Of a DNA stretch of 64,000 bases, positions 14,596 through 64,000 are shown piece by piece. The stretch is taken from NCBI GenBank assembly GCA_018902385.1, contig JABSSW010000029.1:519762-583761 (forward strand), in the 5' to 3' direction. The position numbers and the translations under genes are program-made. Position 1 is the stretch's first letter; each line of letters starts with the position of its first letter. This DNA comes from Physcia stellaris. Lineage: Eukaryota; Ascomycota; Lecanoromycetes; Caliciales; Physciaceae. The notes beneath the pieces are model-generated. The model worked only from the letters and a program-made list of their open reading frames with translations. It had not been told where the DNA came from and made no database searches.

Positions 14596-17349
14596 TCAAT
14601 TTTCATTCATTTTATCATTATTCATTACGTTTATTCGTAACAATTAATAACATCATTGAACACATAAATTGACAATTTTTATCGTTGTTTTACAAACAGT
14701 TTTTAATTATCGTGTAACGTTTAATTGCAATGCAATTTCAATTTTCGTGAAATGTTTAATTCAACAAACGATAATTGTTGCAATTTTCGTGAAATATTTA
14801 ATTAAATTTGACGATAACGATTTCAATTGTTTTGCAACGTTTAATTTTCGAACAATCGAATCAAAAAATTTAATTTTCAAAACATTTAATCATTCGACAT
14901 CAAAAATTTCAATTACGAATTTTTTATTTATTTATTTATTTATTTACGAATTTTTCGCAATATTTAATTCAAAAATTTATTTATAGAAATAAAATCTTTT
15001 TATAACAAAATATTCTGAACATTTTCTAACAGAAATTTCTGATTCGATCGAAAAGTCAACTTTTCAAAATTCGAATATCAAAACTTTTGCATTTTCGTTC
15101 ATCATTATTCATTATGCATTGCACACATGAAATGAATTACAATTGTAACGTTTTTCAAGCGCATTTCAACGCATCAAAAATCAAAAAAATTCGAATAATA
15201 TTGAATATGTTATGAAATTCAAAAATATTGAAATTTTCGAATTTGTCAAATCGTTTTCGCAAATCAAAATCTTTTTCAAAATCATTTGTTAAATTCGATG
15301 TTTTTATCAATAATTAATTCAAATTTTCAATCGAAACATACGTCAAAATCATTTCAAAACTTGATGTTTCAATGTTATACAATTATTTCGCTTTTTACAC
15401 ATCAATTAACAACAACATAAAATCATTAACTTTGCGTATCGAAATTGTAAAATAAAATAAACGCATTTTAACGTTTCAAAAATTGTTAAAATCGATACAT
15501 TATCGCGAAAATTATGATGTATTTAAAATTTTCGATTTATATATATGTTGTTTAAATATTTATCGAAATTTAATTCAAATATTTTACACGCATTTGTTTA
15601 TTTATTAAATTGTTATATTTTATTTCTCATTATCAACATATTCAATATGAAAAATTTTTTCGATTTTGATTTATTTGACAATATTAAATCGCGAAAACAA
15701 ATCATTAAACACGCGAAAAAGCGACAAATACGCGAAAAACATTAACAACAACAAATGTTCGAATTTCGATTTCAATTTTTTTTTTTTTTTTTCAATTTTT
15801 TTCTGAAATTCGTTTTCACGAAAATTTGTTTTCGTTGTCAATAAACAATTTGTTAATGAACACAACGTCGTACAATACATTTACGATATGAAAACGTCAA
15901 TGATATTATGAAATTTTCTTTTCAACTCGTCGTTTTATTATGAATATTTTTGAAATTAAAAATTTTTTGAAAAGTCGATTAAAAACGCTTTGTCAATACA
16001 AACAGAAAAATTTTCGCGAAAAAAAACAAACAATAATTAAAAATGAACATCGATAATCAATTTGAATTATTGAAATATTAACGAATCAAAAAAACTCGAT
16101 ATAACGACATTCGAAATCATTTGTTAAAAATTATATTTTTTGACGTTACACGACATTGCGAAAAATCGTACGTGAAAATTTATCACAACGACGATGAAAA
16201 TGTTATGAAAAAAAATTCGATTTTATATTGAATCGAATCGATTAATTATCGAATCTGAAACAAAACAAAACGATATTAATGTTGATTGAATGTTTCTAAA
16301 ACGATTCAAAAAAATAAAAAATGAAAATTCGATAATTTTGTACAAGAATTTTTCGAACACGAAATGAAACGATTGTTCAAAAAAATTTTTTTGATTTCAA
16401 AGTACGAATGTATCGCGAATTGCAAAACGATATGATTAATATAATATCGTTTTTTCGAAAATAATCAAATTATTTCAATTTGAAAACGTTGTTAAAAATT
16501 TACGAAAAAAAAAATCATTTTGCAATTTTCAAAAATCATCGAATGTACATAAAATTCAAAATAAACGATATTAAAACAAAAATTCGATTCAAATTTTAAT
16601 ATATTAATTTTCAATAAAAATCATATCATGATTCGAAAATGTTGTTAAATTGTTTCGATTTCGAAATCAAAATATTGCACGAATTTTCGAATTCACGAAA
16701 CGAAATTTTTCGTTTTATTTTTGCGACATTGTTTTCTGATTGAATTTAAATTAATGTTATGTCATGTCAAAATCGTTAAACACGTTAATTTGATCGAATT
16801 TAACGTTTTGATCGATAAAATATAACATTTCGAAAATTTTTATTTTTTTCGTTTTCAGAATTCAATTTTATTATTATTCATAATGTTATCACGATGATTC
16901 ATTATCGTTTCGTAAACATTGCATTTGTTTGTAATCATTTGATCATTTAATCGTATATTTTTTACAATTTTGAATCGTTTAAATTTTCGTAAACGACTGT
17001 TCGATCAAATGACATCATTTAAAATTTCAAAAACATTTATTATCGTTGCGTTCGTGATTCGAAATAATATTGTTATTTCGTTTTAATTATTATCATTCGA
17101 CAACACGATCGTGAAATCGTTTTAATTTGAAATCGATCAACGAAACGAATTGATTTTAATTTATGAAAATTCATCAAACGACGAACGTATTATTGTTGTT
17201 TTTCGCGTGTCGTTTCGACGTATTATCGTCGTTTTAACGAATGTTGACGATTTCGAATTCGATAATTAAATTGATTACGCACAATTGCGAACAATTCAAA
17301 CGATAATTGAAAAAAAAAAAAAAAAAACGTGAATATAAATTGTTTTTGA
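14596..17349. other. AT-rich, heavily mutated DNA without recognisable genes
   Basis: The composition changes sharply about 250 nt after the P450 stop. From here C and G are scarce and ApG, CpT, GpG and CpC are very rare, whereas CpA, TpG and CpG are not. Open frames are short and low-complexity. I see no family motif. It is probably old repeat DNA. Confidence 0.7.
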
Positions 17350-19639
17350 AAAAATCAAACGTTTCGATACAACGTCGTTTCGAAAAAACGAAATTAATTT
17401 AATTCGCGTTGTTGAGAAAAAGCGAAAACGTTCACAAACGTTTTTCAATAACGAAAACGACGATGACAATGACGACAACGAAAAATTTCGTAATAAATTT
17501 ATTTCGAAACGTTCGCGTTTTCGACGAATTATCGAATTCAAATTCAAAAATTTATTCATTTATAACGTCAAAAATATTAAAAAATTTCAATCGTGAATTC
17601 GAAACGTCGTGTGAATTTTCGACGCAAATTTTAATTATTTTTTCAAACGTTGTATCAAAATCGTTTGAACGCAACAATTTTTTGATACGATTTCAATCGA
17701 ATTATGAAAATCGTATCAAAAAATCAATCAACATCGAAAAAATTGATGATGACGTGATCGTTTTTTCGAAATTTTTTCACAACGATGTCGAATTTTTTGA
17801 AATTCGTCGTTTTGACGTGAATCAAAAAAACAATAATGTTCAAACAAAAAAAAACGATGAATGAATTCGCGACGTATTTCGAATCGTTGAAAACAAAATT
17901 GAACGTTATCGAAAACATTAAACGAAACAAATTTCTTTATGATTTGAACGATATTTTACGAAAAATTATTATATTCGATGCAATTTCGTTTAAATTGATT
18001 GTCGAATCAAATTTCAAATCGACATGTTCGAATTTGATTTGAATTTGATTCAAATTCAAACTTTTAATTTAAAATTTGAATTTGATTTGATCAAATTTCA
18101 AATTCAATATTAAAATTTGAATTTGATTTGAAAATGACATCATATATTAATTATAATAAAAAAAGTTTTAATAATAAAAAGTTATTAATAAATGCATTAT
18201 TTTTTTGCATTTTTTTTTAAAACGTAATATTTATTTCAAATTTGATTATTTTTAAAAAAAAATCAAATCAAATCAAATTTTCAAATTCAAATTTCAAATT
18301 CAATTATAAAATTTGATTTGATGTCAAAACAAATTTCAAATTCAAAATTTCAAATTTGATTCGATTTTTTCGAATCAAATTTTTGATTCGATTCAAGTTT
18401 TTGATTCGACGCGATCAATTTAATTTCGTTGACGATTCGTTAAAAAATTTTGATCAAAATCGTCAATGCGAAACAATCGTCATTTTATCAAAATTTTCAA
18501 AACGTTTTCGATTTTCGCAGATTTTTTCGTTCGAAAATCGTAAACGTCAAAAAAACAAAAATTTCGTCAAAGATGATTTTTTTGCGCAATTTGATAAAAC
18601 GAAAAATCAATTTAATAAAAAAAAAAAAACGACGTCGATTCGTCGAAGAAAAAAATCGAAATTGTTACAATTGTTATAAATCGAAACATAAAAAAAAAAT
18701 TGTTTTTATAAAAAAAAAAAACAATCGTCGACGTCAATGCGATTCGTAAAAACAAAAACAAAATATTTTTAAAATTTATCGAAATAAAAAACGATTCGAA
18801 AAATTGAAAAAATTGTTGCGATAATCGTCGTTGTTATAACGAATTTACACAAAATTTAATCAAATAATATATTTATTCGCGTCAACGTTAATATTTTTGA
18901 AAAATAACAATCGCAAATGAATTTTATAAATTTTGTCGTTAATATAAATTGCATTTCGAAATTATTGACGAAAAAATAAAATTTGCAAAATATCGACGAA
19001 ACGTTCATGAAAATAAATAATTTCGACGTTAAAAACAAATTTTTTATTAATACGTATCAAATAAAAATAAACGTTTGTGATGACAAAAATAATTTTTTCA
19101 TTTCGATACAAAAATTTTATTTGTTTCAAAATTTGATGTATTTTTTGATAATGAATTTTTCATAAATAACAAATTTGTTCGAAATTTTTTAAAATTTTTT
19201 TTTCAAGATGATTTTGACATATGTTTCGATTAAAAATTTGAATTTTTAATTGATAAAAACATCGAATTTAACGAAAAAATTCTGATTTGCGAAACAAATT
19301 TGACAAATTTTGTAAAAATTTAAACGCGTTGACGTAAAGCAAATTTTTATAATGTATTAATTTTACGATAACGCATCGAATTATTGAAAAACGTAAAATT
19401 TAATAAATTTCAATTATTAATTATCAGCATCGTATGAATATTGTAAATGTAAAATTAATCGTTGAAATTCAACGAGAAAAAAAATGAACAATTTATTTAT
19501 ATTCGTATTTGACGTAATAATTATGACGTTTTGATTAACGTCATGATTATGATATTAATTTATGACGTTTTTATTAAACGTGCGTTTATAATTAAATTAC
19601 ATTTGAATTACATTTATTATTAATGTCAAACATTTGCGT
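17350..19639 (+). pseudogene. Degenerate gypsy-type gag-protease relic (plus strand)
   Basis: Frames at about 17,409-18,042 and 18,360-18,760 have gag-like basic composition. They end in a zinc-knuckle remnant CYNCYKSKH (C-x2-C-x4-H, 18,663-18,689) whose final Cys is lost. Downstream, 18,983-19,165 matches the pattern of a fungal gypsy retropepsin: an INTYQIKINVCD strand followed by a hydrophobic flap-side strand. An AT-rich palindromic insert splits gag at about 18,029-18,363. The relic ends where the complete gypsy element is inserted at 19,640. No plus-strand pol from it is evident beyond 27,108. It is not functional. Confidence 0.6.
18029..18363. mobile_element. Palindromic AT-rich insert within gag (MITE-like)
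   Basis: Both flanks are built from repeats of the words CAAATTCAAATTT and AAATTTGAATTTG in opposite orientation, starting CGAATTTGATTTG and ending CAAATTTGATTCG. The core (about 18,135-18,245) is A/T-only-like. The insert interrupts a gag frame that resumes after it. The inverted layout suggests a MITE or hairpin element, but no clean target duplication was found. Confidence 0.35.
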
Positions 19640-19833
19640 TGTTAAACGTGATGTGTGAATTAATTGATTTAGAAACTATAAACGACAAAATGTCAATTTA
19701 TGTACAGTAATTGCGAATCAGTTGTCTGATAATCATTCATTTAATATGAAATAACGACAAGATTTTTGTCAAAAGTCATGTCAGAATATTTGATTTAAGT
19801 TCATATTATTTAATCTGATTTTGTGTCATAACA
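19640..19833 (-). repeat. 3' LTR of the gypsy element
   Basis: 194 bp, TGTTA...TAACA. It differs from the other LTR at 17 sites: 15 transitions and 2 transversions. Confidence 0.92.
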
Positions 19834-21519: not shown

Positions 21520-21525
21520 GTTTCG

Positions 21526-24206: not shown

Positions 24207-25700
24207 TCACGAGCGAAATTCAAAATTGAATTTAATGTCTGTTTTGACGTTTGATTGTATAATAAATGTTTGATAATCGTGAATGTTTTTTGTCAACGAT
24301 GTGTCAAATTTAATCGAAACAATTTGACACGAACGCAAATGTCGATGAAATTTGTTATTGAAATAAAATTTCGATTGACAACGTTTGCACGAATAAATTT
24401 TCGTTTGTTTGACAAAAATATTCACAAAATATTCGAATGATTCATGATTCACAAAATTCTCGTTAAATTTCTGAATTTCGAAATGTTTTTCGTCATGATA
24501 TTTATCATTTATCGCAAGTATTTTCGACGCGTTCTCAATATTCATGTTGTGATTATTTTGATAATCTTTTTCATCGTTTGAATAATTGTTTTTTGTTTTT
24601 TTTTTTCGCAAAGTACGTTCGTCGATATGATGTTTCATTTTGATTAAACGTTTCATTTTGATTGAAATAAGTATCTTGTTTAGACGAAAACGAAAATGAG
24701 TTTGAAAAATCAACAAAATATTGATTAAAACGTAAAAATTGCGAATATTGAAATCGCGAATCGAACGTGTTTCGATTTTTTTAAATTTCGTTTTGTTGCG
24801 ATTGTTGAAATCGATATTGCTGATTTTCGTATAAACGTTTTTGCATATTTTGTGTCGACTGTTGTCGATTTGAATAATTTGATTGATATGAACGTTGTTG
24901 AGAAATGTAAACGTTATTTTGTTTTCAAACTGATACGATGTCGAATATGAATTTGACGAAACTGCGAAAAAATTCATTGAAATTTTCGTAATTTACACGT
25001 TCATTAATAACGAAAAGAATATTATACGAATCGAATGATGCTGATAACGTTAATAATTAAAAACGATAAATGAATTGAAAACGACGTTCGTTTTCGAATT
25101 GATGATAAAATCGATATCGATTTTCGATATTTCATTATATTTTTTTTTTATCATCAAGTTGTTGAAAAAACTCATTCATTGTAATTTTTTTTGTCGATTT
25201 AATCAAATTTCGTCGAAATTTCAATTTCAACTCATTGTAAATTAAATACAGTTGCGAATAAATTGACATCATTGTCGATTTAATTTTTTTGATTATAATT
25301 TCAACGAAATCGAATGATTCGCGATGTCGACGAACATTTTTTATCGTGTATTTTTTTTTCGTGATGATCGTCAACGTTGTCGATGACGATTTTTTTCATC
25401 GTTTCAACAACAAACGTTTTTATTTTTTTACGTCATTTTCGAATTTGATCAATCGTTTTTGATTATCGTTGATTATTTTTGTGTATCAACGTAACGCGTA
25501 ATCACGCATGCAATTATAAAAATTTGTTCGAATCACGTCGACATTTTTGAACAACGTCATATTTTTGATTTTTTCAATATAAAAATGAACATTTCGAAAA
25601 TATGTATTTTTGTTCGAATGTTCGATCGAATTGTCTGTAATTTTTTTTTTTTTCGTATCACGAATCAAAAAATTCGTTTTTGAATATTTCATTTGACGTC
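24207..25700 (-). pseudogene. Gypsy gag relic with a C2H2-like zinc finger
   Basis: Frames at 25,486-25,692, 25,135-25,374 and 24,207-24,977 form the gag part. The second holds SIYSQLYLIYNELKLKFRRN and MNEFFQQLDDKKKI, a helical capsid-like stretch. The third ends in CKRCQSKFYFNNKFHRHLRSC-type spacing (Cys, Cys, His, His and a trailing Cys at 24,327-24,389), a C2H2-like finger just before protease, where most Ty3 elements carry a CCHC knuckle. Confidence 0.65.
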
Positions 25701-26909
25701 ATCATTATTGTCAGAAAATTCGATTGAATTTGATGATTCGAAAGTTTTGAAAATTTTGTCTGAATGTTGTTTTTGATATTTTCGAACAAAGTTTGAAATG
25801 TTTGTCATTGTTGTTGAATGAATTCAATGTTTTGTCAATTGTTATTTTCATTCGTCATGTTTGTATTAAATGCGAAAATAGATTCGATATTTTTGTGTTT
25901 CGAAAAATAATATTCAGCGAAATTATGATGTTATCTCGTCGTTAAGAAAACGACGTCGACGAGATGACTTGAAATTTACGACGTAAATTTTTCGAGAAAT
26001 GAACGTAAAAAATATTAAAAAAAATATTTGCAATCGTCGATTTTAAATCAAAAGTGAATGACGTAATTCGATCATTAATTCAGTCGAGAAATGATTGATT
26101 GCTTCGATACGTTTCGATGACGATCACGAAAATTTTAAAATTTTTGCGAAAACGAATTCTGTCGACGATTCACTTTGCTGAATAAACAGTGTTTGTCGAA
26201 ATTGAATGACTAATAATTGACAACGATGTTGATTTAGAACAATTAATTACGATATTGTTCACAGTAATTTTTGCAAATGTATTGACAAAATAAATTGAAT
26301 CAATTATCGATGTAATCGAATAACTCAAACGCAATGCGAATGACTTGTGATGTGAAAACAATCAAAATGACTTAAATGAAAATGATGTATCGTATTGAAA
26401 TTTGAAATAAAATGATGATAAACAAAACAAAAAAAAAAAACGAGTTGAAATTTTCAAAACTTGTTGAACAAATTACTTGTTGATGAAAAAACAAATGAAA
26501 TCGTTAAACTGAATTGTTCGAATCAAACAGAAATTCGATAATGAATTGACGTTCAAATGTGTCGTCACTGAACGATGACAAATGAATTCAAACGAAAATT
26601 TGAAATGTTCAACTATTTGAAAAAAGAAATTAGTCGTCTTTATTACGAATTGTAAAAAGTCGAAAAAACGTGATTGAATGATTCATTTTTAAATGAGTAT
26701 TGATTGTTGATAAAAATGAATGATTGATTGTCGATCGAGACGTCAATCAAATAACAATCAAGTTTTTGATTGCGATCGACAAAAAAAATACTGATGAGCA
26801 ATTGATTTGCATACAGAATGCAAAACTGTTCGAAAATTGATACGTTAAGAAACAAAAAATGATATCGTTTTGTTTACGTACAGATTATCGCTTGAATGAT
26901 ATTATCAAT

Positions 26910-27103
26910 TGTTAAACGTGTTGTGTGAATTGATTGATTTAGAAATTATGAACGACAGAATGTCAATTTATGTACAGTAATTGCGAATCAATTGTCTGAT
27001 CATCATTCATTTAGTATGAAGTGACGACAAAATTTTTGTCAAAAATCATGTCAAAATATTTGATTTAAATTCATATCATTTAATTTGATTTTGTGTTATA
27101 ACA
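26910..27103 (-). repeat. 5' LTR of the gypsy element
   Basis: 194 bp with the same termini as the left LTR and about 91% identity to it. It is followed directly by the TGCGT target duplication at 27,104-27,108. Confidence 0.92.
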
Positions 27104-27108: not shown

Positions 27109-29945
27109 TACGTAAACGCGTATTCAAAATTAACGCATGAATTAATTGTTCGATAACGCGAACGTATTACAATTGTTTTTTTTTTTAATGCGTTGATTTT
27201 CGATGCATAAAAACAATATCAATGCAATAAATAAAAACAACATGTAAATGTTTTGATCGTAAAATTTCAAAAAATTCATTGAAATTAATATCAAAAAATT
27301 TTCAAAATTTCGAAAACAAACGAAAAAAAAAAAATTTTCAAGAAATATCATGTGCGATATCACAATGCGTTCATGTATCGTTTGTTCAAAAATTCGTTAA
27401 AAATTTTTCAAATTTTTGTTTTGAAAAAAAAAAATTTTTCATATTATTGCGCAATCGTAAAGCATGTTTTCAATGCAAATTTTGAATAACAATGTTTCAA
27501 AATCGAAAATCGAAATGTCAATATCAAAATTTGAATGACGAAATTCAAATTCAATTTCATCGAAACGTCGACGCGAATTTTTTTGTTAATAAACATGAAA
27601 TTTCGTCGATTACGAAAACAACATGTCGATAATTTTACGATATTGTTTATTAACAATTTTTTTGTTCGCATTTTTTTTTATATTTTTTTTATCACAATTT
27701 TTTTCGCGTAAAATATTTTTCAACGTTTACGTAACGTTTGTTTATGTATATAATTATTAATACGACAATTTATTTATTTTCAAATCATAATCGATTTTCA
27801 AAAAAATCGACGTAAATATCATAAAACGCGCGCGTCACGAACGCAAACAACAACAACAAATTAACATGTTATAATTTGCAAAAATTTCGCATGTATAACG
27901 TGTTTTGATCGTCATGCGTACGTTCGCGATGTTTTGAAAATTTACGAAAAATGTCGTTTTCAACATCACGATTCAAATTTTTGTCATTCGATATGTATTT
28001 GATTACGCACGCGTTGCGACAACGTTAACAATTCACAATTTTCAAAACGATTTCGACGACGAATAAAAAAAATCGTGCGCGAATTCGCAAAAATTTAACG
28101 ACGCGATCAATTCATTTTCGTTCGTATCGAAAAACGAAAAAAAAAATGCGATTGTTAATTTGAAACAATAACGTCGCAATTATGAATACATTTCGATTAT
28201 CGCAAATCGCGCACAATCAACGATCAATCGTGTTACGATTTTGACGAATCAATTTGACGAACGATTGACGAAAACGAAAAAACAAATCATTGATTTGTTG
28301 AATGAAATTGAGAAAAAAAAAAAAACGAAAAAAATGAAATTGACGAAAAAAATGAAAAAATTAAAAAAAAAAATGAAAAATTGATGAATTTTTTGATGAA
28401 AAAAATGCGCAATTGACGATAAACAAACGAAATATTTTTTAGTTTTATTTTTGCATTGATTGAATACAAAATTCTCGTTCAGAAAATGATGATTCAAAAA
28501 TCGAAAATTTCGAAAAAAATTTTTTTTTGCGATTTCGATCAACGAAATGAATTTCGATGAAACGAATTTTTCGAACATTTCGAATTTTTCGAATTCGTTG
28601 AATTTCGACTCGTTCGTTTCGAACGATTTTGATTTCGATTCAAAATAAATATGCGATAAATAAACGATTTTTTTTCTGTTCATAAATTTTCTTTGTTTGA
28701 CGTTTGACGTTTGTTTATTTTTTTTTGTTCGTAATTATATGTTGATGTTGAACGATTTTATCGTTTTTATCGTTTTAAACGATAAAACGAAAAAATCAAA
28801 TCATTGTTGACATTGAAACAAAATAAATTATTTTAAATTAATTAATGACGTCGTTTGCGTTTACGCGACGCGCGTTTATTGTATTTTTTCATCAAATTTG
28901 AAACATTTTTGAATTCATTTTTATGTAATTATTAATTATATTTCGAATTTTAATTAAATTATTTGATTTTGTATCAGATATTTTTTTTGTCATTTATTTT
29001 GTTAAAAAAAATTTCAATTTTTTATTGTTTTTCGTCATCAATTAATTTTGAAATTTGTATAAATTATTTCGCATATTTATCGTTTGTTTTATGATAATAA
29101 TTTTTCAATAACGAAACATGAAAAATATTATGAATGCGATGAATATTGAATAAAATAAAACGATACGTTTGCGCATCGATTTTATTTTTATACGAAAAAA
29201 TTCAACAAATTTGTGCGACATTTTTTTGTTAAAACGTCGTTGTTTAAAATTCTTGATATTGAACATTATTAAATCATTTACATTGAATTTTTTGATTCAT
29301 GATTTTGATTGTAATATTTCGTTTGCGTTACGACAACGAATTCAAAACGTTTTATTAACGTTTTTTTTATTTCATGCAAATGTTTTATTTTATTTTTTGC
29401 AATGAATATTTTTTTTTTTTTTGAAATCGTTTTCGATCACATAATGAATTTCTGAATGATAATCATACATTAAATAAAAAAACGAAACATTTGTAAAAAA
29501 ATAAATAACATTATTATAAACAAATTCAATTATTGAAAATATATTTGTTCATTTCGTTTGTTTCGCGTCGACGAATGTACGCAAATACGTTTCAAAATTT
29601 AATTTTAACGTTCGATTAAATCATTCGTTTGAAAATGAAAAACAATATTTAATCGTTGTTTAATGCGTGCGTGATAACACATCGAAAATCAAAAACATTC
29701 GTGAAAACAAAATTTTTGTCATTCATTATATCATTCGAAACGTCAAATCGTAAAACAATTTTTTTATAAAAGATTTTCGTCAACGCAACGACATCGATTT
29801 TGATCGTAATTGAAATGTATTTGATCATTTTGATGTATCGATTTATTATCATTAAAATCGAATCATAAACGACATCGCGACGTTTGTTAAAAAACAAATC
29901 GATAATAAAATTCATGATAATTTTCTTTCAAAAAATATTCTAACA
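27109..29945 (-). pseudogene. Truncated second gypsy element: integrase core and tail relic
   Basis: The frame at 29,649-29,915 reads MNFIIDLFFNKRRDVVYDSI and then MIINRYIKMIKYI, the integrase catalytic core. It continues in another frame to about 29,530 with a TGA at 29,549-29,551 in place of a conserved Trp. At about 29,105-29,270 KNFKQRRFNKKMSHKFVEFF and then RIHNIFHVSLLK form the integrase tail. The 5' part is missing: the relic stops at about 29,945 where GC-richer satellite flank begins. Below 29,100 only low-complexity sequence remains (28,249-28,683 is Phe/Lys/Asn-rich). Its LTR was not found. Confidence 0.65.
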
Positions 29946-30054
29946 TTCACTCTAACGGAACCGGTGCATCGGTTCCAACGATTTTGGTGAGTGGGGTTAG
30001 GGTTACTTAGCTCCGGTTTCAACGATTTGAGAAATCGTTGGAACCGGTGCGATA
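29946..30054. repeat. GC-richer inverted-repeat flank of the satellite
   Basis: 14-bp perfect inverted arms at 29,971-29,984 and 30,032-30,045 (GGTTCCAACGATTT and its complement) surround a 47-nt spacer. Within the spacer is GGGGTTAGGGTTAC, about two units of a TTAGGG-type motif. The word GGAACCGGTGC recurs here and at the satellite unit junctions. This patch keeps many GG, CC and AG pairs, unlike its surroundings. Confidence 0.6.
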
Positions 30055-30750
30055 TCTCGATGAATATTACACGTATCAAAAATCTGAAACCAGTTCTGAA
30101 ATCTACGCAAAAAACCGAGTTGAAAAGTGGTGGGGTTGGGCCGAATCGGGTTAGCGCCTGATTTTATACGAATTTTTGAAAATTTTCAAGTCGAAAATTT
30201 CTCGAAGTCCCGAGATTTCGTTGGAACCGGTGCAGTTTCTCGATGAATATTACACGTATCGAAAATCTGAAACCAGTTTTGAAATCTACGCAAAAAATGG
30301 AGTTGAAAAGTGGTGAGGTTGAGCCGAATCGGGTTAGCGCCTGATTTTATACGAATTTTTGAAATTTTTTGTGTCGAAAATTTCTCGAAGTCCCGAGATT
30401 TCGTTGGAACCGGTGCAGTTTCTCGATGAATATTACACGTATCAAAAATCTGAAACCAGTTCTGAAATCTACGCAAAAAATCGAGTTGAAAAGTGATGAG
30501 GTTGAGCCGAATCGGGTTAGCGTCTGATTTTATACGAATTTTTGAAATTTTTCGTGTCGAAAATTTCTCGAAGTTTCGAGATTTCGTTGAAACCGATGCA
30601 GTTTCTCGATGAATATTACACGTATCAAAAATTTGAAACCAGTTCTGAAATCTATGCAAAAAATCGAGTTGAAAAGTGATGAAATTGAGTCGAATCGAAT
30701 TAACGTCTGATTTTATACGAATTTTGAAAATTTTCGTCGAAAAAATGATT
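30055..30750. repeat. 183-bp satellite, three full copies and one partial
   Basis: Copies start at 30,055, 30,238, 30,421 and 30,604, each at TCTCGATGAATATTACACG, with an exact 183-nt period. Because 183 is a multiple of three, one minus-strand frame runs through all copies (30,186-30,776); I regard it as a by-product, not a gene. Mutation load rises from copy 1 to copy 4, mostly GG to GA, AG to AA and CC to TC changes. Confidence 0.92.
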
Positions 30751-36019: not shown

Positions 36020-36627
36020 TGTTAAATGAATTCAGATTGAGATGACTTTCGTCGAATTTAGAAGTTTTCGACATCTCAAAAAGTTATTCAGTTTTTTCGA
36101 TTATTCAGTCATATCAAGCGCAATTTTCAAGATAAAATCATAGTTTCGTCTATGAAAATGTTTCTTTACACTTGATTCACAATTTAAATCTAATTATAAT
36201 ATACGATACAATCAACAACAAAAGATATTTCATTGCGCAGTATTGCGACATCCAAAATTCATTCAAATGATGATTTTTCGAATTTTCAAGTTAACAGAAA
36301 TAAATAGTAATTGACTGCAACTATTACATGATGTGATCAATTCGAAGTTTCGTCTTTTCGCTGATACGTAATTTAAATTTTTAGATTTTGTTTCAAAAAT
36401 TTAAATTACGTATCAGCGAGACTGATCATCTTTCTATTGATTTCATGCTTTGTTTATGTTTACATTTCTGTATTTTTTCAAGACGCGCTATTCACAAATT
36501 CAACATCAATTGAATTGTTTTCTGACATCATCAATCATAAGATAGTTCCATTTCAGAGCAATGAATGATAATTCTCTATACATTGTCTTACACATTCAGA
36601 GAATCATATCAGCAGTTCTTTATTACA
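36020..36627 (+). repeat. Candidate 5' LTR of the copia element
   Basis: It begins TGTTAAATG directly after the helicase reading breaks off and ends TATTACA. Three bases later comes AGTATCAGTTACAGC, resembling an initiator-Met tRNA primer-binding site. No partner LTR was recognised after 40,574, so the boundaries are tentative. Confidence 0.35.
36359..36418. repeat. Perfect 24-bp inverted repeat (hairpin)
   Basis: Arms at 36,359-36,382 and 36,395-36,418 are exact complements (outer end CGCTGATACGTAATTTAAAT), with a 12-nt loop. It lies inside the candidate copia LTR. Confidence 0.9.
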
Positions 36628-36659
36628 TCTAGTATCAGTTACAGCATAGTACTAAATCA

Positions 36660-47000: not shown

Positions 47001-50000
47001 AATCGTTCGTTGATACGAAATCAACAAAAAAAATTCGAATGTTTATATCGATTTTGTCGAAAATTTTCAAAAATTTATTCGTGATTTTCGACGCGTTCAA
47101 CAATTTCAATCTTTTTTGCATGTCAAAATTCGTATCGATGAAAATTTTCGTTTTTCGATCGAAACACGTCAAGATTACAAAATTCGATCGAAATTTCGTA
47201 TTGAATTTTATAATTGTTTAAATTTAATCGAATGAAAAATTCAACAATTTGATTTTATCACGTTCATCAAATCATTTCATGAAATATTTTCGAAATCGTT
47301 CATCGTCAATTCGTCGTTTGACAGTTTCGAATTCGAAAAAAATCGTTCATCATTGTTGTTTGTTGAAAATGATGATTTCATGCGAAAAAATCGCGCTGAA
47401 TTTTATCGCATGTTTTAAATTTTTTTATCAAAAAATGCAATCAGTTTTTGACAGTTTTTTTCAATCGATTTTTGAATCGACAAAAATATTCGCGTTTCGA
47501 ATCGTCAACGAAATTTCTTGTTTATCATCACGAATTACGATGATCAACAACGAAACAATTATATGATCAATGTCATGATAAGAAATTTCATTTTCATTGT
47601 TAAAAATATCAATTTTGTACAAATGTTCGAATTTTGACGCGATTATTGAAAATTTCGTTATCGCAAAACTTTGTTCGATCACGAACAATCGCGACGTCGA
47701 CGACGAATTGAATTGAATTACGAACACAACGTCAACATTTACGAAATTGTTTATTTATCACGAAATAAAATTATTTGAATTTTTTTATTTAATTTTCAAT
47801 TTCATATCATTTCACGATTCGTTTTGATTCGCAATCGAATGCAATTTTTTTCAAACATAATCAATTTCAATTCAAATTGAACAATTTTTCGCGCAAATTT
47901 ATTTTGTTCACTCAACATTTGCATGATGATTTTATTTTTAACGAAAATATTTTTTTTCAAAATACGTATACGTTTGTCGTCGAATTTTGTATTCAAATTT
48001 ATGTGATAACGATGTTTGCACAAATTCAGAAATGATAAATCAAAAACGATTTTCGATATTGTTTTTTTGACATCGACAAAACGATCATTAAACAATTTAT
48101 CATCGATCGACTCAATGCGAATCAAAAACAAAAATGTCATGATTTGAATTATTTAATTTTTGAACGTTTTTTTCAAATTTTTTTTTTGATTATTTCGATG
48201 TCAACGAATTTTTTTTATTTCAATTCAATTCGATCGACACGTTTTTCGAAATATCATTACATCGATTTATGACGTGATCGATTGAAAACGTTGTTCAACA
48301 TTCAAAAACATGATTTTATCGATTCAATCAATCGAAAATGAAAAAAAAAAATTTTCGTCAATTGATTCGAAATTTGTATCACGTTTTTTTCATCACGATC
48401 AATCAACGATTTGTTAAACATTTCATAAAAATTTTGTTCGATCATGTCGTTTTTCATTTATTGACGATTGTTCATTACGATTTCGATCATTTGATTATCA
48501 TGAAACGAAATCGAATAAAAATTTCGCAATGAATTGTCGTTCGTGTTTCTGAAAAATTACAAAACAATATGAAAAATATTTTGACATATCGCAATTTGAA
48601 ACATGTCGATCAATTTCATCAATTCGAAAAATTCGATTGAAATTTCGATTATCATCAATTTATTTTTCAAAGTTACGAGATATTTTTGATTCGTGTGTCG
48701 ATGTTGAATTCTATTTCAAAACATATAAAGATTTTGTGCAAAGATTTTTTTGAATCGATCAAAAGAAAATTGCTCAAAAATTCGAAAATAATGAAACAAA
48801 ACAGCAACATGAATTTGATTACGACATTTTTAAACGATATGAAAAACGATCGACGTGACGACATTTTCAATAACGATATCGATTTCAATGACGATTCGAT
48901 CGAATCGAAAAAATTTGTCGATAACGATTTTCGAACATAAAATCACGTTCAATCAATATTTATAATCGTCATCGTATTATCATCAACATTTCATCGAACA
49001 CAACGAAAACTTGATAAAAATTTCGATTTGAATTGATATTTTCTAAAATGTTCGATTCAGTTTTTGTTAATTCAATACAAAATTAAAATTTGTTTTTTTT
49101 TTGATTTTTTAACACAAAAAACACAATTTGCGAATATTTGTTGCATTGATACGCTTTTTTTTTTCAAATTAAAAATTCTGATGAATCGAAATTCAAAATC
49201 ATTTTTATCAAAATCGTAAAGAAAATTTTCGAACGTTAATTTGTATTTGTTTTTTCGTTTTTTATATAGAAATTTGATTCAATCGTTGTAATTTTGTATT
49301 TATCGATCAATTATTCATTTCATTCAAACATTTCACATCAGAAATTTCGTTGTCGAATATGATTCGTGTTTTTTAATCATTTCGTTCAAATTCAATGTTT
49401 CGATTATATTTAATTCGTTCAAAATTAATTCAATTTAGAATTATATTTTGTTTTGTGTTGAATTTCACGATTTGAAATTTCAAATCGAATCGCATGTCAC
49501 GAGCATATATATTCATCGTCGATATATTAAATGAATATTGATATATTTTTCACGATTCGTTTCATCGACTAAATATAACATGAACAAAAACGTTTAATCA
49601 ATTCAAATCATGTCAAATTATCATTTCGAATTCATTCAAATAATTTACAATTGTATTACGAATTGCATGCAAAATTCGATCAAATGAATTTTGTATTTCA
49701 CGTTTTCGATAATATATTTTTTCGAATTTATCGTCAAAAACGAGAAAAATATCGAATATTTTGTAATATTATTGAACATTACATCATGTTCAATCGCAAT
49801 TACATGACAAACATAAATTTGAAATTTGTGTTATTTTTTCATCATTTCATTTTCGATTCAGAATTCGTTTTTTTGAATTTGTCACAAAATATTTTCTGTT
49901 GAAAATTTAATTTTGTTTCGAATAAAATGAACGAATGAAATGTAAATCGTCATTATTTAAAAAACAAAACGCGAAATGTCGATTTGTATCAAAATTTCGC

Positions 50001-53000
50001 AAAAACGCGTTAATTTTTTTCGATCAAATCATTTCATTTTCAATTTCACGTGAAAATTAAAACGACACAAACAATCGATACAAAAATCATGTTGATCAAT
50101 ACAACGTTAACATCAACATTCACATCGATTTTTTCACAAATTCATTACAAATTGTTTAGAATTATTTTCAAACGTTTAATCGATTAATAAACATGAATGA
50201 TGTAAAAAAAAAAAAAAAAATTCATTTTTGTTTTTGTTTGATGTAAAACATAAATACATCATGTATCGATAATATTTGTCATTCGATCGTCATCAATTTT
50301 CATTTTTGTCATTTTTCGATTCATTAATTTTTGAAAATTTGTTTTTTTTTTTTTGAATTTTGTTTTGAATTGTTCAAACAAACATTCGCGATTTTTCATT
50401 TTTCATTATTCAATGTTTTTCGAATTTTTTTCATTTCGTCGAATCGACAAAAACAATTATATCATTTGTTTCATCATTCACACATTCGAATTTTCTTTTG
50501 AAATTTTTTTTCGTTTTTTGATTCAATTCGTTTTTCGTTTCGATTTTTTTTGTATTCGAATTTGTTTGAAATGTTTGAACAACGAACATTCGTTTCGATT
50601 TTTGATTTTTATCGCATAATGTGTTATTTTCGAATATTATATCATTACAAAACAAATTTATCGATGTTTTATGTTAAACATTAAATTTGTGATATTGTTT
50701 TTTTTTTCATTTTTTTTTTTTTCAAATTCAGTTTTGTTTTTTTCAAAATTCACGTCATCAAGATTTTTTGCGAAAATGAAATCGATACGAAATTTCGATG
50801 TTTGTATCACGATCGATCAATTTTCGATATCATTGTTTTCAAAATTTCAAAATAATCACAATTTTTTTTTGTTTTATCATGATTTCATTTTCGCATCGAT
50901 TGCATTATTAAATGTTACATCGTCACAATTCGAATTGTTGACAATTTCGATTTTTTTTTTCAACAATGTTTGTGTTTTTGTGCGTTGTCATTTTCGATAT
51001 TTCGTTAATGATCATTTGTGACAATGTGAAATTTTTGAACGATGACGAAAATTTTTGATGATTTGTTTGTCGATTTTTCGCACAACGACGTGTTTTTTGA
51101 TATTTTCGACAAAAACGAACACAACGATGTGTTTTTCAATGACGAAAACGATGACAAATCGATTGAAATTTTTTTCGTGATTGATATCGACAACGTCGTG
51201 ATTATCGATTTGATATTCGATTTTGAACGAATAACGACATTGAATGTTGTCAACACACGTTTGCTAACACAAGTTTTCGACATGTCGACAAAATTAAAAA
51301 ATGTTTTTGATTTGTAATTCACGATCAATTTCGCAATAATTGAAAAATAACAACAATTTGTTCGAATCAACAATCGTTGTCACGTGTCGAAATTGAACAA
51401 TCACAATGTTTGCATGTAAACAAAAATTTGCAAACAATCAACATTTTCGCAACGCGTCAAAATCAACAAATCAAAAAACGTTTATAATCATGCAATCACG
51501 TCACGACATCGATGATGTCGAACAAACATATTTTTTTTCATTTACGATCGATTTCAATGTATATTACATTTTTCAATTATCATTTTATATTCAAATTTCA
51601 AACAACGATTGAATTGATCGATTTTCGAACGAATGTTTTTTTTTCGTTGATGCGATCGTCGACATTATTATCAAATTCAAATTTTCAAATTCGAACAACA
51701 AACGTCAATTTTAATCGTTGTCGATAAAAAATATTTTGTTGTTTTTGTTATCATTTCGCAATTCAAATTAATACAAACAACAATGTTCATATATTCGATT
51801 GAATGATTGCAATCGTTCGAATTTTTATCGTTTTTTTTTTTCAATCATTTTTTCGTCATACGTATATATTTTTGACGATGATTTTTCGAATCTTGACATT
51901 TTCATCGATAAATTTCAATTTTGTTCAATTTTGTTTTCAAATTTTTTTCAAAAATAACAATTCAATTTCACAAAAACAATCACGCTTGATGTATCATGTT
52001 TTTGTGCAAAAATTCGTTTGTTTTTTTTTTTTTTCGACAAATGTTACATCAAACACACGAATAAATTTGTTTGTCGATCAAAATCAAATATATTTCGATA
52101 TTCGTCATTTCGATTCAATCGCGATTTTTTCGTTTTTACAATCTTTGTTCAAATCAAATTTCAATTTTGTTTTCAAACAATTCGTTTTCAATTTTATCAT
52201 TTCAATCATCGTCACGATAAACAAACAATTTATTTTCATTATATTTATCACAATCAATTAATCACACGCGAAATACAGAATTTCTTATTCAATCAATGTT
52301 CATCGAAATTTTATTTTATTTGCGATTCGACAATTATTATCATCATCGAAACATTCGACAAGCATTTTTTCATTTCATTTTTATTTTTGAAAATTCGAAA
52401 TTCAAATCATGCAATTCATTTATTTTTTGTATTTTTCAATCGACATGTTCAGAAAACAAATTTCATTTTTTTTGTCAATGTTATTTTCAATAACGTTTTA
52501 TTCGATTTGATTTCAATATCAAACAAATTTCAATTCGACATCGCAATAAATCGCACAAATTTTCGAACACGCGTACATCGTCTGAAAAAGTTTGAACGAA
52601 ATTTGACGAAACAAATCATGAAAAATCAACAATTATTCAATTTTAATACGCAATTCGTCAACAAACATCAACAACAATGACGAAAAAAATTGTATCAAAA
52701 ACAAAAACAACGTCGATCGAAAATCAAACGACGAGCAAATATTCGATTGACGAATCAATTCATTCGATTTTTCATTCAAGATTTCGAAATCGAATAATTC
52801 AAACAGAAACGAAATTCTGTTCGATTTCATTCATCAGTATTTCACAAATCGATGTCATGAAAAACAATTTCGAGCAAAAAAATCGTCGTTCGAATTGTCA
52901 TGTTTGTTTTTATATATCAATCGATTCACGAAACATGCGATCGATGATTGCATCATCGAAATTTGATTTTATTTTTACAACATCGTTCATATTTGTTCTG

Positions 53001-53520
53001 TATTTATTCGAATGACGATCGTTGTTTAAAAAATCATCATGTGATTGAATTATAAATATCAAATTTTCATCACGATTGTCAAGAAATTGTCAAATTTATC
53101 GATATCGATAAACGAAAATCGTCGTAACAGAAAACGATTTCAAATCGACGATGTCAAAAATTTTCGAACATTGTTTTTCATGTTTATGTGCACGTTTTTT
53201 GTAAATCAACGCTCGTGCGAAAAATCATTTAAAAACTGACAATTTTCGCAAAGTTAGATTTTCGTGTCATTCAATATATGAAAGTCGAAAAATCGCGATT
53301 GATTTTATTGTATCACGTCGATTCGTTCAATATCGATTATTGTCAAAGTATTTGCAAAACACGATCACACATATGACAAACATGAAATTCGTAATTCAAT
53401 CAAATCGAAACATCGAAAGTTCGAATATCGATAATTATGTTTTATTCAATCAATTTTATCGATTTGAATCACATGTTTTGATCGACGATAAAATCAATGT
53501 CACGACAATGAATTATCATA
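44061..53520. other. AT-rich mutated DNA with plus-strand-biased open frames, unidentified
   Basis: Longer readable frames lie on the plus strand: 44,472-45,017, 45,955-46,215, 51,042-51,317 and 52,018-52,680. The piece at 45,955-46,390 keeps a mixed, protein-like composition (HDFKFCYCSFFFNKITQNAR; a TGA-interrupted continuation with HVRNIVKMKNEIQTN). I do not recognise the family. They are not intact genes. Confidence 0.5.
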
Positions 53521-53924
53521 CAATCAAAATTGTTTTCAAGACAAATAAGCAAATTTCATAAACAAATCGTTGCGATCATTATTTTGTTTTTTGAATCATA
53601 TTTAATATCGAATTTCAAATTTTTACAGAATCATTTGTTCAATTTATTCATTTCGGCGCGTAAGAACACGTCAAACACGACAATCGTCAATCAAACAAAT
53701 CAAAAATCACGACAAAATAATGCAATCAAAATCGTTTTCAAAACAAATGAACAAATTTCACAAGCAATTCATCGCGATTATCATTTTGTTTTTTTGAATC
53801 GTATTTAATATCGAGATTTCAAATTTTTACAAAACGACATGTTCAATTTATTCATTTCGATTCGTACGAACACGTCAAACACGACAATCGTCAATCAAAC
53901 AAATCAAAAATCACGACAGAATAA
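53521..53924. repeat. 202-bp tandem duplication
   Basis: CAATCAAAAT(T/C)GTTTTCAA starts at 53,521 and again at 53,723. Both copies end in AACACGTCAAACACGACAAT and a CAAATCAAAAATCACGACA box. Confidence 0.9.
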
Positions 53925-56900
53925 CGTTTTGAAACATTTTTTCGCATTTATTTCTATATCAAACGATGTCACGAATGACGCGTAAAAAACAATCGAACAT
54001 GACAATTCAAAAATGAAATTGAAAATATCGACATGTTCGATAACGAAAACAGTCAATCGAACAATTTTTTCGCGTATTTCGATATCGTGAATGAAAAACA
54101 AACGATTGATCATGATACATTTTCAAATTTCGATGATTTTGATAACATCGATCAGATTTGAAATGATGACTATGTGAACAACGATAACGAAAAAGCAAAA
54201 AAATTTGAAATTGAATTGTTCGAAAAAATTCATCATTGAATCAAAACATTCGAAAATGTCAAAAAATTAATATGATCACGTTATCAAATCGAATAATAAT
54301 TAAAAAATTCGAAATCAACATCGATATCGAATTGCATTTGATCATGTTTATTCGAAAAATTCAATTCATTTACGAAACAATATCGTCGATTACAAACAAA
54401 TCAATTAACATGAACGTCGCGAAACACAATTTTCGAATTCAATTCAAAATTTTCAAAACGTCGATTGTTGAATTTGCAATTTTGTTTGTTGTCGAACACG
54501 ACAATTTATCAAATTTGTTCGTTCGAAACATGTATGTTCGTGTCATTTCAATCATGATTTTTATGTTAAAAACAGCATTGCGATGTCGAATCGAACGATA
54601 TTTCGCGTCAAATGATTTTGACATTTTGAAAAAAATGATCAAAATTCAAAAATTGATTTTTCGATTTGACGTTCAAATTCGCAATTGAAACACGATTTCA
54701 TTTTTCAAACGTTTCGTCAAAAAAAAATTCAATTCAGCATTCGATATTTCAAAAACAATCACTTCGAACGAAAATTGAAATTTCGACGAATGAAAAATCG
54801 AAAAATGTTGATTTTTCGACAATTTGCACGAAATCATGAAAGATTGAAAAAACAACGAAAACAAAAAACGCGAAAACGCGAATTTAAAATTGTCGTTCGA
54901 AAACAAAAAAAATTACAAATTTTACAAAAATCGAAACAAAAAAGCGATCGACGAAAAAAGACAAAAAAACAACGACAACGACAAATTTTTCGATCGATAA
55001 CAATGAAAAATGAAAAACAAACACGACAAAATTTGTTGTTTTGCAACAAATTTTTTTCGTACGAACGTAATCGATTTTAAATTTCAATTTTATAAACAAA
55101 AATTTTGTCAATCGAAAGTTGCGAGAAAAAAACGTCATTATCGAATTTTTTACAATTTGATAAAAATTTCATTTTTTTAATTTTCATATATCAATTTTGT
55201 CGAATTTGTGATCGAAACATGTACAAAATCATGTGACGTATCGTTGATATGTTTTCATTCATATTTTAAATTCACGAAATTGTTCATATAACAAACTGTT
55301 TCGATCAATCAAAAAAAATCGTGAAATCGATTATAAACGATGCATCGATTATTTTGCGTGAAAAATATCATTGATCAATGTTTGAAATCGTTTTTTGATT
55401 TTCAAAATTATTTGAACAAATTATTGTCGATCAATTCAAAATTGAACGATCGATTTTTTATATATTTTTATTTGAATCGTTTCAAAAACATAAAAACACA
55501 ATACATGAATTTCGTCTGTTTATTCATATCATTTTTATCGCATCGAATTTCAACATTGTTCAAAATTTCATGTTCGATCAATTGAATTCGTTTTCACATT
55601 TAATTTTTTTTGATTTCACATCGTCGTTTTTCAAATTTATGTCGTGTTTACAAGATTTTTATCAAAAACAAATTTTCATTATCGATATTCGTATTTGTTT
55701 AATCAAATTTTTTTTTGTTGTTTGTTTTTTTTGTTTTTAATTCAAAGTTTTTTTTTGTTGATTGTTTTTTTTTCATCAAATTTATTGAAAAATTTGATAA
55801 AAAAAATGTCAAAATTGATTTTTGTTTTTTGTAATATGAAATGTCAATAATTAAATCGAATATTATTCGATATTTTATTCACATTTTTTTTTTGTTCGAG
55901 ATTGATTTCATAATCATCGTTTGTTTTTTCGCATTTTTTTTCGAATTCATTTGTATTTTTTCACAATTTCACATGTTCGAAATTTTTTGTGTGACAAATG
56001 TTAATATCGAATTTCGATTTTTAAATTATAAATCGTTATTTAATTATTTCATTATCGTAAAAAATTCATGATATTCATTTTTTCAATCGATTTTTTCGTT
56101 GTATCGTTTTTTTATCACATGAAAAATCAAAAATCGCATTTTTTTCATCAAACAAATCGTTGTGAATTTTTTTTTTTTTTGATATTTTTTCAATCATGAT
56201 TTCTTGATTGTTTTTAACATTTCGTCGATCATAACATATCGATATTCGAGATTTTTCGACAAATTTCAACATTCACGATGACGTGTTTATCGATATCGTG
56301 TTCAGCGATGTGTTTTTCGAAATCGTCACGAATAAAATGCACGACGACGTGTTCATGAACAATGTATTTATCGACGTGCTGATTGATATTTGATTTAAAT
56401 TCGATATTGATTCAAACGCGATCGTCGAATTTTCGTCGAAATTTGAACGTGTATCGATATTGAATTTCGACAATGAAAATTATTATCACAAAAGTTTGAC
56501 GACATGCTTCAAAACAATCACAAAATAATTTTTAATTTCAAATCGCAACACGTCGTAAATGCTGTAAAATTTCGCGACAAATCATGTTCAAAAGCATCGA
56601 TTGTAATATGCAAAAATCAATCATTATCGAATTTTAAAATCAATCATGATTTGCAAGTTGTAACGTTTTCGCAACGCGCAAAGTATATCGTTTATAGCAC
56701 ATTGTATCAACATATTTATCGAACGTTATCAAACGAAATCGCATGCAACAAATTGCATGTCACGAATTTCATGCAATTTTTTTGAAACAACGCGAACGAT
56801 TGAAATTTCGTGAATTTTATGATTGCAAATTGCATGCAACGAATCGCATGCAACGCATCGTTTGCGACGAATTGTTTATGATTCATTCAATCGATTATCG

Positions 56901-61740: not shown

Positions 61741-64000
61741 CATATCGAGAAATTGAAAATTTATTGTATTCGTTTTGACGATTTTGAATACATTTTTTTG
61801 TCATCAAAATGAATTTTGAAATTTTCGTTAAACGAAACAAATCGAAACATAACAACAAAATCACATAAATTTTCGATCAATTTCATCAAGATTTGATGAA
61901 TTGAAAATAATTATTAAAATGTTTCAATTATCGCACATTGTTTGACAATGACAAAATTTAAAAGTTGTACACAATTCGTTCAGAATCGTTTTGACGATTT
62001 TCATCATCACATCTCGTCAATTGTCGATATAACATTGATAAAAATCAGTCGAACGAAAAAGAAAATCGATCATGAAAATTTGTGAAAATTCAAACGCTCG
62101 TTTGAAATTTTTGTCGTGAAACAAATTAAAATCAAATCGATTTCAAAAACGAATTTGATGTCGATTAACGTGTTTCAATCATTTGCATCGAAAATTCGAA
62201 CATTCGTTAAATAAAAAATCGATTTTTCATTTTTTTTCATTCATCATATTCATTTTCGAAACGTTTGCAAATCATCGTTTTTGTCAACAACATGATCATT
62301 TTTTGTTGCATTTTTCGTCGTGTATACGATGTCGTTTTATTAATTTTTCATGAACATTCGAAAATACAAAATTCGTTTTTACGATTGCAAGACGATTTGA
62401 ACATCGTCATGCATCGCATCGATCGTGAAAGCGAAAACACGTTAAATTCGAATTGATTCACAATTTTTGATGATAAATTTTGTTCATTTTATTTCAATAT
62501 CGTTGATTGTCAATTTATCACAAATTTGCATCAAATTCGACGATTCATTATCGAAACAATACAATGATTCAGTTTTTTTTCATTTCAATTCTCATCGAAT
62601 TTTTTTTTTTCGATTTTTTTTTCAGCAACGTTGCGAAACAAAAATTGTTCGATTCGCAATTGATTTCAAAATTTATTTTTGTCACGCAAACAAAAATGCA
62701 AAATTCGTTTTTACGATTGCAAAGAAATTTGAAAGATGTCAATCATGTCATTCGCGAAAAAAATGTCATTTACGAGAAAAACGACGATTTTTCATTTTTC
62801 AATTGACACGCGAAAATTAACGATTGATTTCAATGATTGCACGTGATACGTTTAATTGTCAATTCGTCACAAAATTACAAATCGTCGAATATCGCATTAT
62901 CGACGCGTTAAAAATGTTTCGCAATTCGTTTTTTTTTTGCAATTCGTTATTTCGATTCGTATCAAATTTCGAAATCGAATGATTTGCGAATCGAATATCG
63001 ATTTCGCGTGTTTCGAAATCGATCATTTCGAACAACGAAAATGAACGAAAATTGTCGTTTCGTTTCGCGACATTTATTCAATCATCAACATCAAATGATT
63101 ATCATGTGCACAAAAAAGTTTTTTTCATCGAATTGTAATATGAATGAAAATGTTCGAAATAAACAAAACAAATGTCGTTAATTTATAAATTTGAAATCAT
63201 GTTAATCGATGCAATGATTATTGATCGATTCGAAACGAAACATTTCGCATGATCGATTAAATTTGTTCATTTTTCGTTAAATTTGACGAATGTGATTGTC
63301 AAAAATCGAAAAACGAAATATATTTCAAGCGTTGCATTGATTGAAAAAATCGAAAATTATCAAATCGACATTGTTCATCTAGATAGTTTTTTTGACACAA
63401 TAAATTGACATTGATTGACGCAAAATCATTGTATATTTCTGAATTCGATCGTATCAATTTCTGTTTGAAAAATTTGCAAACAATCGTAAATTCGTGTTCA
63501 TCGTTCGTGCTTTGATAAAAATCGAAATTTTAATCGTTTCATTGAATACACGAAATCGACGATTCACGAGCGACAAATCAAAATTCATTTGAATTATATA
63601 CAACGATTTGCATGCGCAATTTTTCGTTGTCATTCAGTATATGATACAGAAATTTGAAACAATTCGATAAACGCGTTTGTTTTTCGATCAAATTTACATT
63701 TTCAAATTTTTGCACATTGCAAAACAAATAACACACAATTGTAAGTTGATGATTGATCGAACGAACATTCATTTTCGAAATGCCAATCATTGTTCAATTT
63801 GTTGTCAAAAAAACGTGAATTGAAAAAAATTGAATTGTTAATGATTTTCAAAAATTTCGATTGACGCACAGTGCAATACGATAATCAATATTATGTTTTT
63901 CGATCATCAACGCAATTTCATTTTCTTTTCGATCATTATCAGATTTTTTATCGTTCGTATTGTTTTGATTCGATTTTTGCGCATCGAAAACAATCGCAAT
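61741..64000. other. AT-rich mutated DNA with a dispersed direct repeat, unidentified
   Basis: AAAATTCGTTTTTACGATTG with matching flanks occurs at about 62,368-62,390 and 62,700-62,722. The reading QNSFLRLQ is shared by both copies. Nothing else is recognised up to the window edge. Confidence 0.5.

Follow-up and report, generated by a model that had tools for sequence, protein, structure and literature searches.

In the mobile DNA of the lichen fungus Physcia stellaris, C-to-T change is nearly confined to cytosines that stand before C or T, in the order CpC > CpT >> CpA > CpG. The stretch analysed, hereafter the window, comprises 64,000 nucleotides of contig JABSSW010000029.1 (C29:519,762-583,761), in a genome of 44 Mb and 147 contigs. 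The pattern is probably the work of a repeat-directed hypermutation akin to repeat-induced point mutation (RIP), whose likeliest agent is a methyltransferase of the RID/Masc1 class with recognition of a 3' pyrimidine. Three features of the window frame the argument, with CpY standing for C before a pyrimidine and RpG for its complement.

1-14,595, no strand: unaffected gene block, used as control, with an RSN1/PHM7-type transporter, a LIP-type lipase and two P450 frames.
14,301-14,600, no strand: block edge, where gene-like composition passes into mutated composition; over some 300-400 bases the CpY fraction goes from about 0.5 down to 0.02.
14,596-64,000, no strand: AT-rich block of degenerate repeats, depleted in CpY/RpG with CpA/TpG and CpG retained, reaching the end of contig C29.

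The AT-rich block has a G+C content (GC) of 26.6% and odds ratios of 0.06 for CC/GG and 0.22 for CT/AG, against 1.31 for CA/TG and 3.25 for CG, with TA at 0.40. The gene block, by comparison, has a TA of 0.71 and values of 0.89-1.10 for the other four. An earlier note on this DNA had claimed that CpT/ApG and CpC/GpG are nearly absent while CpA/TpG and CpG persist, which these ratios bear out, and its hand counts were exact (4 CA, 3 TG and 5 CG at 55,021-55,080; 3 CA, 2 TG and 8 CG at 48,841-48,900; no CT, AG, CC or GG in either). When the bases of the block were shuffled 200 times, CT+AG were expected 4831 +/- 58 times and observed 1048 times, and CC+GG were expected 1750 +/- 36 times and observed 107 times, while CA+TG (6312 observed, 4815 +/- 55 expected) and CG (2839 observed, 874 +/- 25 expected) were in excess. 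Chance composition is ruled out as the cause, as no shuffle came near the observed CT+AG and CC+GG.

Expressed as C/(C+T) by the 3' base, the block gives.54 before A,.474 before G,.015 before C and.056 before T, against.575,.428,.40 and.471 in the gene block. Cytosine before A or G is retained about equally in the two, CpC is essentially exhausted, and about 88% of CpT is lost. Of 823 sixty-base steps in the block, 365 are without CpY or RpG yet hold at least five CpA, TpG or CpG pairs; only one of 243 steps in the gene block is without CpY or RpG. The edge, at about 14.3-14.6 kb, is sharp, and the block contains islands of lesser mutation, one at about 29.9-30.74 kb, the other at about 36-40.8 kb. 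Telomere repeats were looked for at the contig end, which is also the end of the window, and none were found.

The same spectrum recurs elsewhere in the genome, where the sample comprised 64 loci (258 kb, some overlapping) and three other stretches. In 50 of the 59 loci from the transposon searches (L006-L064), C/(C+T) does not exceed.15 before C or.25 before T but is.42-.61 when A follows and.33-.52 when G follows; the remaining nine are intact or little mutated (L035, L036, L038, L039, L050) or mixed (L017, L029, L030, L033). Composition is normal in the methyltransferase loci L001-L004 and in the three other stretches (22 kb), whose positions were arbitrary. The stronger depletion of CpT and CpC than of CpA, which the earlier note had made a test of its proposal, is thus found in the block and, at the level of sampled genome loci, in these 50.

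Alignments of repeat copies by 3' neighbour were made for five sets chosen out of 30 RVT_2 loci, the copies in each being related by descent. Between the little-mutated L036 and 12 more mutated copies, C-to-T change affects 2457/2535 CpC, 3016/3641 CpT, 332/4631 CpA and 90/3606 CpG sites (.969,.828,.072 and.025; -ln(1-p) of about 3.5, 1.8,.075 and.025). Transitions of C:G to T:A dominate this set and all else is rare (T to C.009, transversions.001-.002). The intact L035 and three mutated copies yield 1303/1374 CpC (.948), 1020/1246 CpT (.819), 95/1434 CpA (.066) and 58/1262 CpG (.046). Two further families give, in the same order, 1.00,.84,.048 and.005 (L037) and.913,.725,.083 and.064 (L047), and in the control comparison of the intact copies L038 with L039 and L050, C-to-T change is.018-.027 in all four contexts. 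Apart from these five sets, an element family of the window itself was aligned.

36,001-41,000, + strand: partly mutated member of a Copia-type family, typed by an internal RVT_2 match; 48 family matches including itself.
39,120-39,548, + strand: RVT_2 relic (Copia reverse transcriptase; C29:558881-559309) interrupted in frame by 5 TGA, with neither TAA nor TAG.

The relatives of this Copia-type element elsewhere in the genome are mostly more mutated. Its 23 aligned stretches, which are not independent copies because the loci overlap (L015/L019, L016/L025, L018/L027, L021/L028), show C-to-T change at.989 of CpC,.929 of CpT,.144 of CpA and.055 of CpG. The base 5' to the cytosine has no effect on mutation and the +2 base little. 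Both strands are affected in all six copies scored (top.783-.948 mutated, bottom.664-.919), and none of the six shows the strand clustering or patches that a partial round of RIP would leave. In the sampled DNA, repeats alone are mutated and single-copy genes are spared, with some intact repeat copies escaping. A preference of the CpG type found in Basidiomycota is absent, CpG being changed at only.005-.064.

The earlier note had proposed a repeat-defence process with a different neighbour preference, and the repeat-copy alignments and the 50 loci support it. It had set against this the case in which CpA-to-TpA would be the main change in aligned repeats; the main changes are CpC-to-TpC and CpT-to-TpT, with CpA at 5-14%. 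Its alternative wording, a loss of CpA specificity, is too weak, since the preference has switched to a 3' pyrimidine.

Codon outcomes follow the same rule. A tryptophan codon becomes TGA by C-to-T change at CpC on the opposite strand and TAG by C-to-T change at CpA. Between the intact L035 frame and its three mutated copies, the tryptophan stops comprise 36 TGA, three TAA and no TAG in 39 of 39 cases; CAG has become CAA in 29 of 33 cases, and CAA is retained in 32 of 33 and ATG in 42 of 48. Relics of reverse transcriptases carry 250 TGA, 33 TAA and 3 TAG (RVT_1, 150 rows scored of 527 candidates) and 401 TGA, 101 TAA and 3 TAG (RVT_2, 137 matching rows, 150 scored of 165 candidates), so that TAG makes up 6 of 791 stops by counts transcribed by hand before summing. 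Classical RIP would be expected to leave mainly TAG and TAA.

Standard RIP indices could overlook such a signal, as the earlier note had warned, and here they do. The block has a TpA/ApT of 0.41, a (CpA+TpG)/(ApC+GpT) of 1.43 and a composite index of -1.02, which places it farther from the RIP side than the gene block (composite -0.55). None of 97 one-kb windows passes RIPper-type cut-offs (1.1, 0.75 and 0, after The RIPper). Papers are cited here and below for passages of their text, and one such passage prints.89 and 1.03 as index cut-offs (PMC10998396). The signature of classical RIP, with TpA/ApT raised, (CpA+TpG)/(ApC+GpT) lowered and CpA preferred, is lacking. A CpY index, (CpC+GpG+CpT+ApG)/(TpC+GpA+TpT+ApA), is mostly.00-.14 in the block, up to.26 in its islands,.34 across the edge and.57-1.08 in the gene block, and so tells the two compartments apart in the window.

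The enzymes that such a process would call for are encoded in the genome. The names RID, DIM-2, Copia and Gypsy and the motif labels are used in what we take to be their usual sense; RIDa and RIDb are labels coined here. The earlier note had suggested a search for methyltransferases of the RID and DIM-2 types, and a PF00145 profile search of the contigs returned three genes, RIDa (L003), RIDb (L001) and a DIM-2-like gene (L002), their classes being assigned by comparisons that included no Neurospora RID or DIM-2 sequence. RIDa (P0121; C5:497807-501292, 932 residues) shares 58% identity with its Xylona homologue over 304 residues; RIDb (C6:790057-794028) has 511 residues when spliced. Both keep PPCQ and E-[QE]-T, and the DIM-2-like protein has PCQ and ENV. 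Judged through its Heterodermia orthologue P0008, RIDb is closer to RIDa (247 bits, 44% over 306 residues) than to the DIM-2-like protein (76 bits, 26% over 217 residues); as a C5-methyltransferase with PPCQ and E-[QEN]-T it belongs with the RID/Masc1 class. The best solved-structure matches of RIDa and of P0008 are DNMT1 chains.

In a quick tree (167 columns, 124 rows thinned from 238), RIDa falls with the RID-class proteins of other lichens (Usnea, Teloschistales), and RIDb in a deep, separate clade of 38 rows that has Heterodermia among its members and an SH-aLRT (Shimodaira-Hasegawa-like approximate likelihood-ratio test) support of 99. The thinning set aside P0110-P0120, rows lacking the motifs, rows below 120 residues and, among rows without a species label, two-thirds of P0039-P0109 and three-quarters from P0148 on. 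One lichen genome thus holds two deeply diverged RID-class paralogues (L001, L003). Proteins of Haloplaca and Lecanora helva (P0054, P0061) form a further group in the tree; a second Haloplaca protein, P0221, is of the RIDa type.

We propose that P. stellaris has, or had recently, a repeat-directed hypermutation of the RIP kind, in which cytosines of transposon copies, on either strand, would be changed to T if a 3' pyrimidine follows. Change at CpC would run at about double the rate at CpT, and CpA and CpG would be nearly exempt. A cytosine-C5 methyltransferase of the RID/Masc1 class probably marks or deaminates CpY in duplicated DNA before meiosis. A RID with altered recognition would be the likeliest enzyme, and C5-methyltransferases read the 3' base; the sexual stage and the deamination of C or 5-methylcytosine (5mC) are the timing and chemistry that we would expect. 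The species forms abundant apothecia (PMC7513301).

The spectrum itself speaks on the alternatives. That classical CpA-directed RIP is at work with its CpA signal hidden by composition has next to no probability: it could call on the same RID-class and DIM-2-like proteins, but the block and the genes are much alike in C/(C+T) before A (.54 and.575), CpA is converted at 5-14% where CpC reaches 91-100%, and TAG accounts for those 6 of 791 stops. For the copies examined, alignments and codon outcomes refute it. Far from likely, too, is an AID/APOBEC-like single-strand deaminase acting, for example, on the complementary DNA (cDNA) of retroelements. C-to-T and G-to-A changes predominate, as it would predict, and the genome has eight matches to the deaminase domain PF00383; a PF08210 profile search gave no match in the genome, but it was equally silent in every control genome and so carries no weight. 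Enzymes of this kind read the 5' side and favour one strand. Editing of cDNA would affect a single strand, but in the six copies the strands are alike in level and free of clustering, and the 5' base is without effect; on this strand symmetry and the absent 5' preference the reading was rejected.

Somewhat less improbable, though still unlikely, is slow decay, in which a DIM-2-type enzyme would methylate CpY in repeats and 5mC would then deaminate spontaneously, with no dedicated mutator. The genome holds a candidate for the methylating enzyme in what we take to be a DIM-2-like protein, with its PCQ and ENV motifs, and the loci grade from unmutated to saturated. Against this, CpC in the L036 set is 97% converted while T-to-C change is.9% and transversions are.1-.2%, a contrast of about a thousandfold with transversions where decay of 5mC usually has an effect of tens-fold, and the boundary of the block is sharp. 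Conversion of 97% beside so few transversions argues for a burst of mutation. Contamination or artefact is dismissed by the recurrence of the pattern across many contigs and by the 99% identity of the C5 methyltransferase with P0121, a protein annotated as P. stellaris.

Several observations weigh against repeat-directed CpY hypermutation as the full account. The genome sample is skewed to transposable elements. TGA can also arise from CGA by a CpG change, yet in the L035 test all 18 of 18 CGA codons escaped. A 183-base tandem array in the window (listed below) is only partly mutated. CpA lies slightly above CpG (.07 and.025 in the L036 set,.144 and.055 in the window family), and a weak, secondary targeting of CpA is possible. 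Moreover, the Copia copies L038, L039 and L050 are 95-97% identical over 3.2 kb, with frames of 1257-1624 residues and no CpY mutation, and three stop-free RVT_1 matches have open frames of 833-1151 residues. The three Copia copies are recent or protected elements that got past mutation; the intact copies imply that the process is leaky, is dormant or not active in every generation, or depends on a sexual cycle through which these copies have yet to pass.

Within the reading of a RID-class mutator, RIDb is somewhat the likelier agent. It is possible, if short of an even chance, that RIDb is the mutator by virtue of a recognition loop of its own, with RIDa keeping a developmental or methylation role. 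The deep, well-supported clade (38 rows, SH-aLRT 99) away from RIDa favours this, as does the segment before motif IX, which reads TGGGLDNYYPDG in P. stellaris RIDb and TQGGGLIHPSG in RIDa. Two Lecanoromycetes of other genera are reported to be RIP-positive by classical indices (PMC7882544), and such classical positives suggest that the CpY rule may have arisen in the Physcia lineage. On the other side, RIDa of Physciaceae has changes of its own, both paralogues are seen among named species only in Heterodermia, and the clade comes from the quick tree of 124 rows thinned from 238.

Classical RIP, as in Neurospora crassa, depends on RID, with a side pathway through DIM-2. The P. stellaris process resembles it in two-strand C-to-T change, restriction to repeats, sparing of genes, sharp-edged AT-rich blocks and the presence of RID-class and DIM-2-like proteins. 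It departs from it in target: the main classical target, CpA (PMC12543289, PMC2621366), is spared, and CpC is the site most readily mutated. The CpA preference is the ascomycete rule, and according to passages of a 2025 survey of 1,239 fungi, RIP-like defences share it (PMC12543289). A CpT component has been seen before. In RIPCAL alignments of N. crassa Tad1, CpT changes stood above CpA, and the RIPCAL authors doubted their RIP origin; they also defined a CpC index, yet CpA was dominant in S. nodorum (PMC2621366). For RIP-capable controls, van Wyk et al. (2021, PMC7882544) name CpT-to-TpT as dominant when copies are aligned. Amselem et al. (2015, PMC4352252) saw CpT beside CpA in Botrytis, Sclerotinia and Magnaporthe, and the two also occur together in Anisogramma (PMC10998396). 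Since earlier alignments have placed CpT above CpA, prominence of CpT alone is not new. P. stellaris shares with those cases the CpT-to-TpT change in transposon copies of RID-bearing ascomycetes; there, CpT goes with CpA, and CpC carries no signature in the passages covered, whereas the P. stellaris process spares CpA and mutates CpC more than CpT. In Monilinia, CpA changes occur together with CpC-to-TpT double changes (PMC8959702).

Outside the ascomycetes, the RIP-like target in Basidiomycota is CpG (as TpCpG), for instance in Microbotryum (PMC4352252). That hypermutation is likewise C-to-T with a preference other than CpA, but the CpG mutated in Microbotryum is the best protected pair in P. 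stellaris, and Microbotryum and Rhizoctonia have Masc2-type genes and, in the passages covered, no RID-type (PMC4352252, PMC4014442). The single-nucleotide polymorphisms (SNPs) of Rhizoctonia solani AG8 are, out of four classes, most closely spaced at CpC, though the authors describe a CpG bias, and, unlike the changes in P. stellaris, CpC SNPs are sparser in repeats (301 bp apart) than genome-wide (214) (PMC4014442). Closer at hand, the lichen Cladonia rangiformis also has transposon blocks of very low GC with sharp edges and both RID and DIM-2; no dinucleotide analysis appears in the passages covered (PMC12542154). The GC peak of mutated DNA there, about 16%, is below the 21-30% or so of the mutated loci of P. 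stellaris, a difference that would be expected because C before A or G survives.

Open-access PubMed Central papers, in the passages found, yielded no report of joint CpC and CpT targeting with CpA spared, and none of RIP in P. stellaris. The paper on the P. stellaris assembly (46.57 Mb, 184 scaffolds, GC 43.32%, Nanopore and Illumina reads, ascospore culture) has, in its passages found, no RIP analysis and no text with 'repeat-induced' or 'AT-rich' (PMC7513301). Targeting of CpC and CpT with CpA spared is a real, strong and new variation on RIP.

Other features of the window are the following.

29,901-30,743, no strand: 183-base tandem array of about 3.8 units, partly mutated (CpY fraction mostly.14-.28) within fully mutated DNA.
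24,210-24,992, - strand: open frame of 261 residues within mutated DNA, lacking Pro, Gly and Trp but with 31 His, Met, Gln or Cys.
51,958-52,677, + strand: open frame of 240 residues within mutated DNA, lacking Pro, Gly and Trp but with 38 His, Met, Gln or Cys.
19,639-19,833, + strand: dispersed repeat, copy 1, 91% identical to 26,909-27,103.
26,909-27,103, + strand: dispersed repeat, copy 2, pairing with 19,639-19,833.
42,765-44,085, + strand: diverged tandem duplication, 66-69% identity.
53,491-53,924, + strand: tandem duplication with a unit of about 204 bases, from repeat comparison within the window.

The family of the 183-base array is satellite-like and has 106 matches in the genome, some of them clustered at the two ends of C4 and where C10 begins. 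The genes at 305-14,343 (the transporter, the lipase and the two cytochrome P450 frames) are possibly part of a metabolite cluster. The P450 frame at 12,571-14,343 comes to within some 300 bases of the block edge and is still of normal composition, which suggests that little mutation leaks into the gene.

Ten open frames of at least 230 residues in mutated DNA have 0-4 Pro, Gly and Trp and 14-56 His, Met, Gln and Cys. A mutated Gypsy frame (L032:2035-2808, - strand) has 64 protein-database relatives, all from ENA assemblies. Pro, Gly and Trp make up at most 2% in 59 of the 64 (12-15% in a comparison set of four methyltransferases), neither Pro nor Gly occurs in 55, and His, Met, Gln and Cys reach 4-14%; because Trp may be TGA called as Trp, reliance is placed on Pro and Gly. 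Because a query that is itself mutated preferentially finds relatives of its kind, and P. stellaris may be the source of some of them, these relatives show existence, not frequency.

It may be, on a tentative view that we hold at rather less than even chances, that in Physciaceae a duplicated RIDb was re-aimed from CpA to CpC and CpT, giving a nearly inverted repeat-defence code, and that such systems are widespread in lichen fungi and have been overlooked because standard indices seek the loss of CpA. Surveys based on TpA/ApT and CpA can label strongly mutated genomes as RIP-free. Experimental work on RIP rests on CpA systems, and to our knowledge both RID's choice of cytosines and its substrate, C or 5mC, are open questions. 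A natural system directed at a 3' pyrimidine, in a genome that carries two diverged RID-class paralogues, offers a direct handle on how RID chooses its targets.

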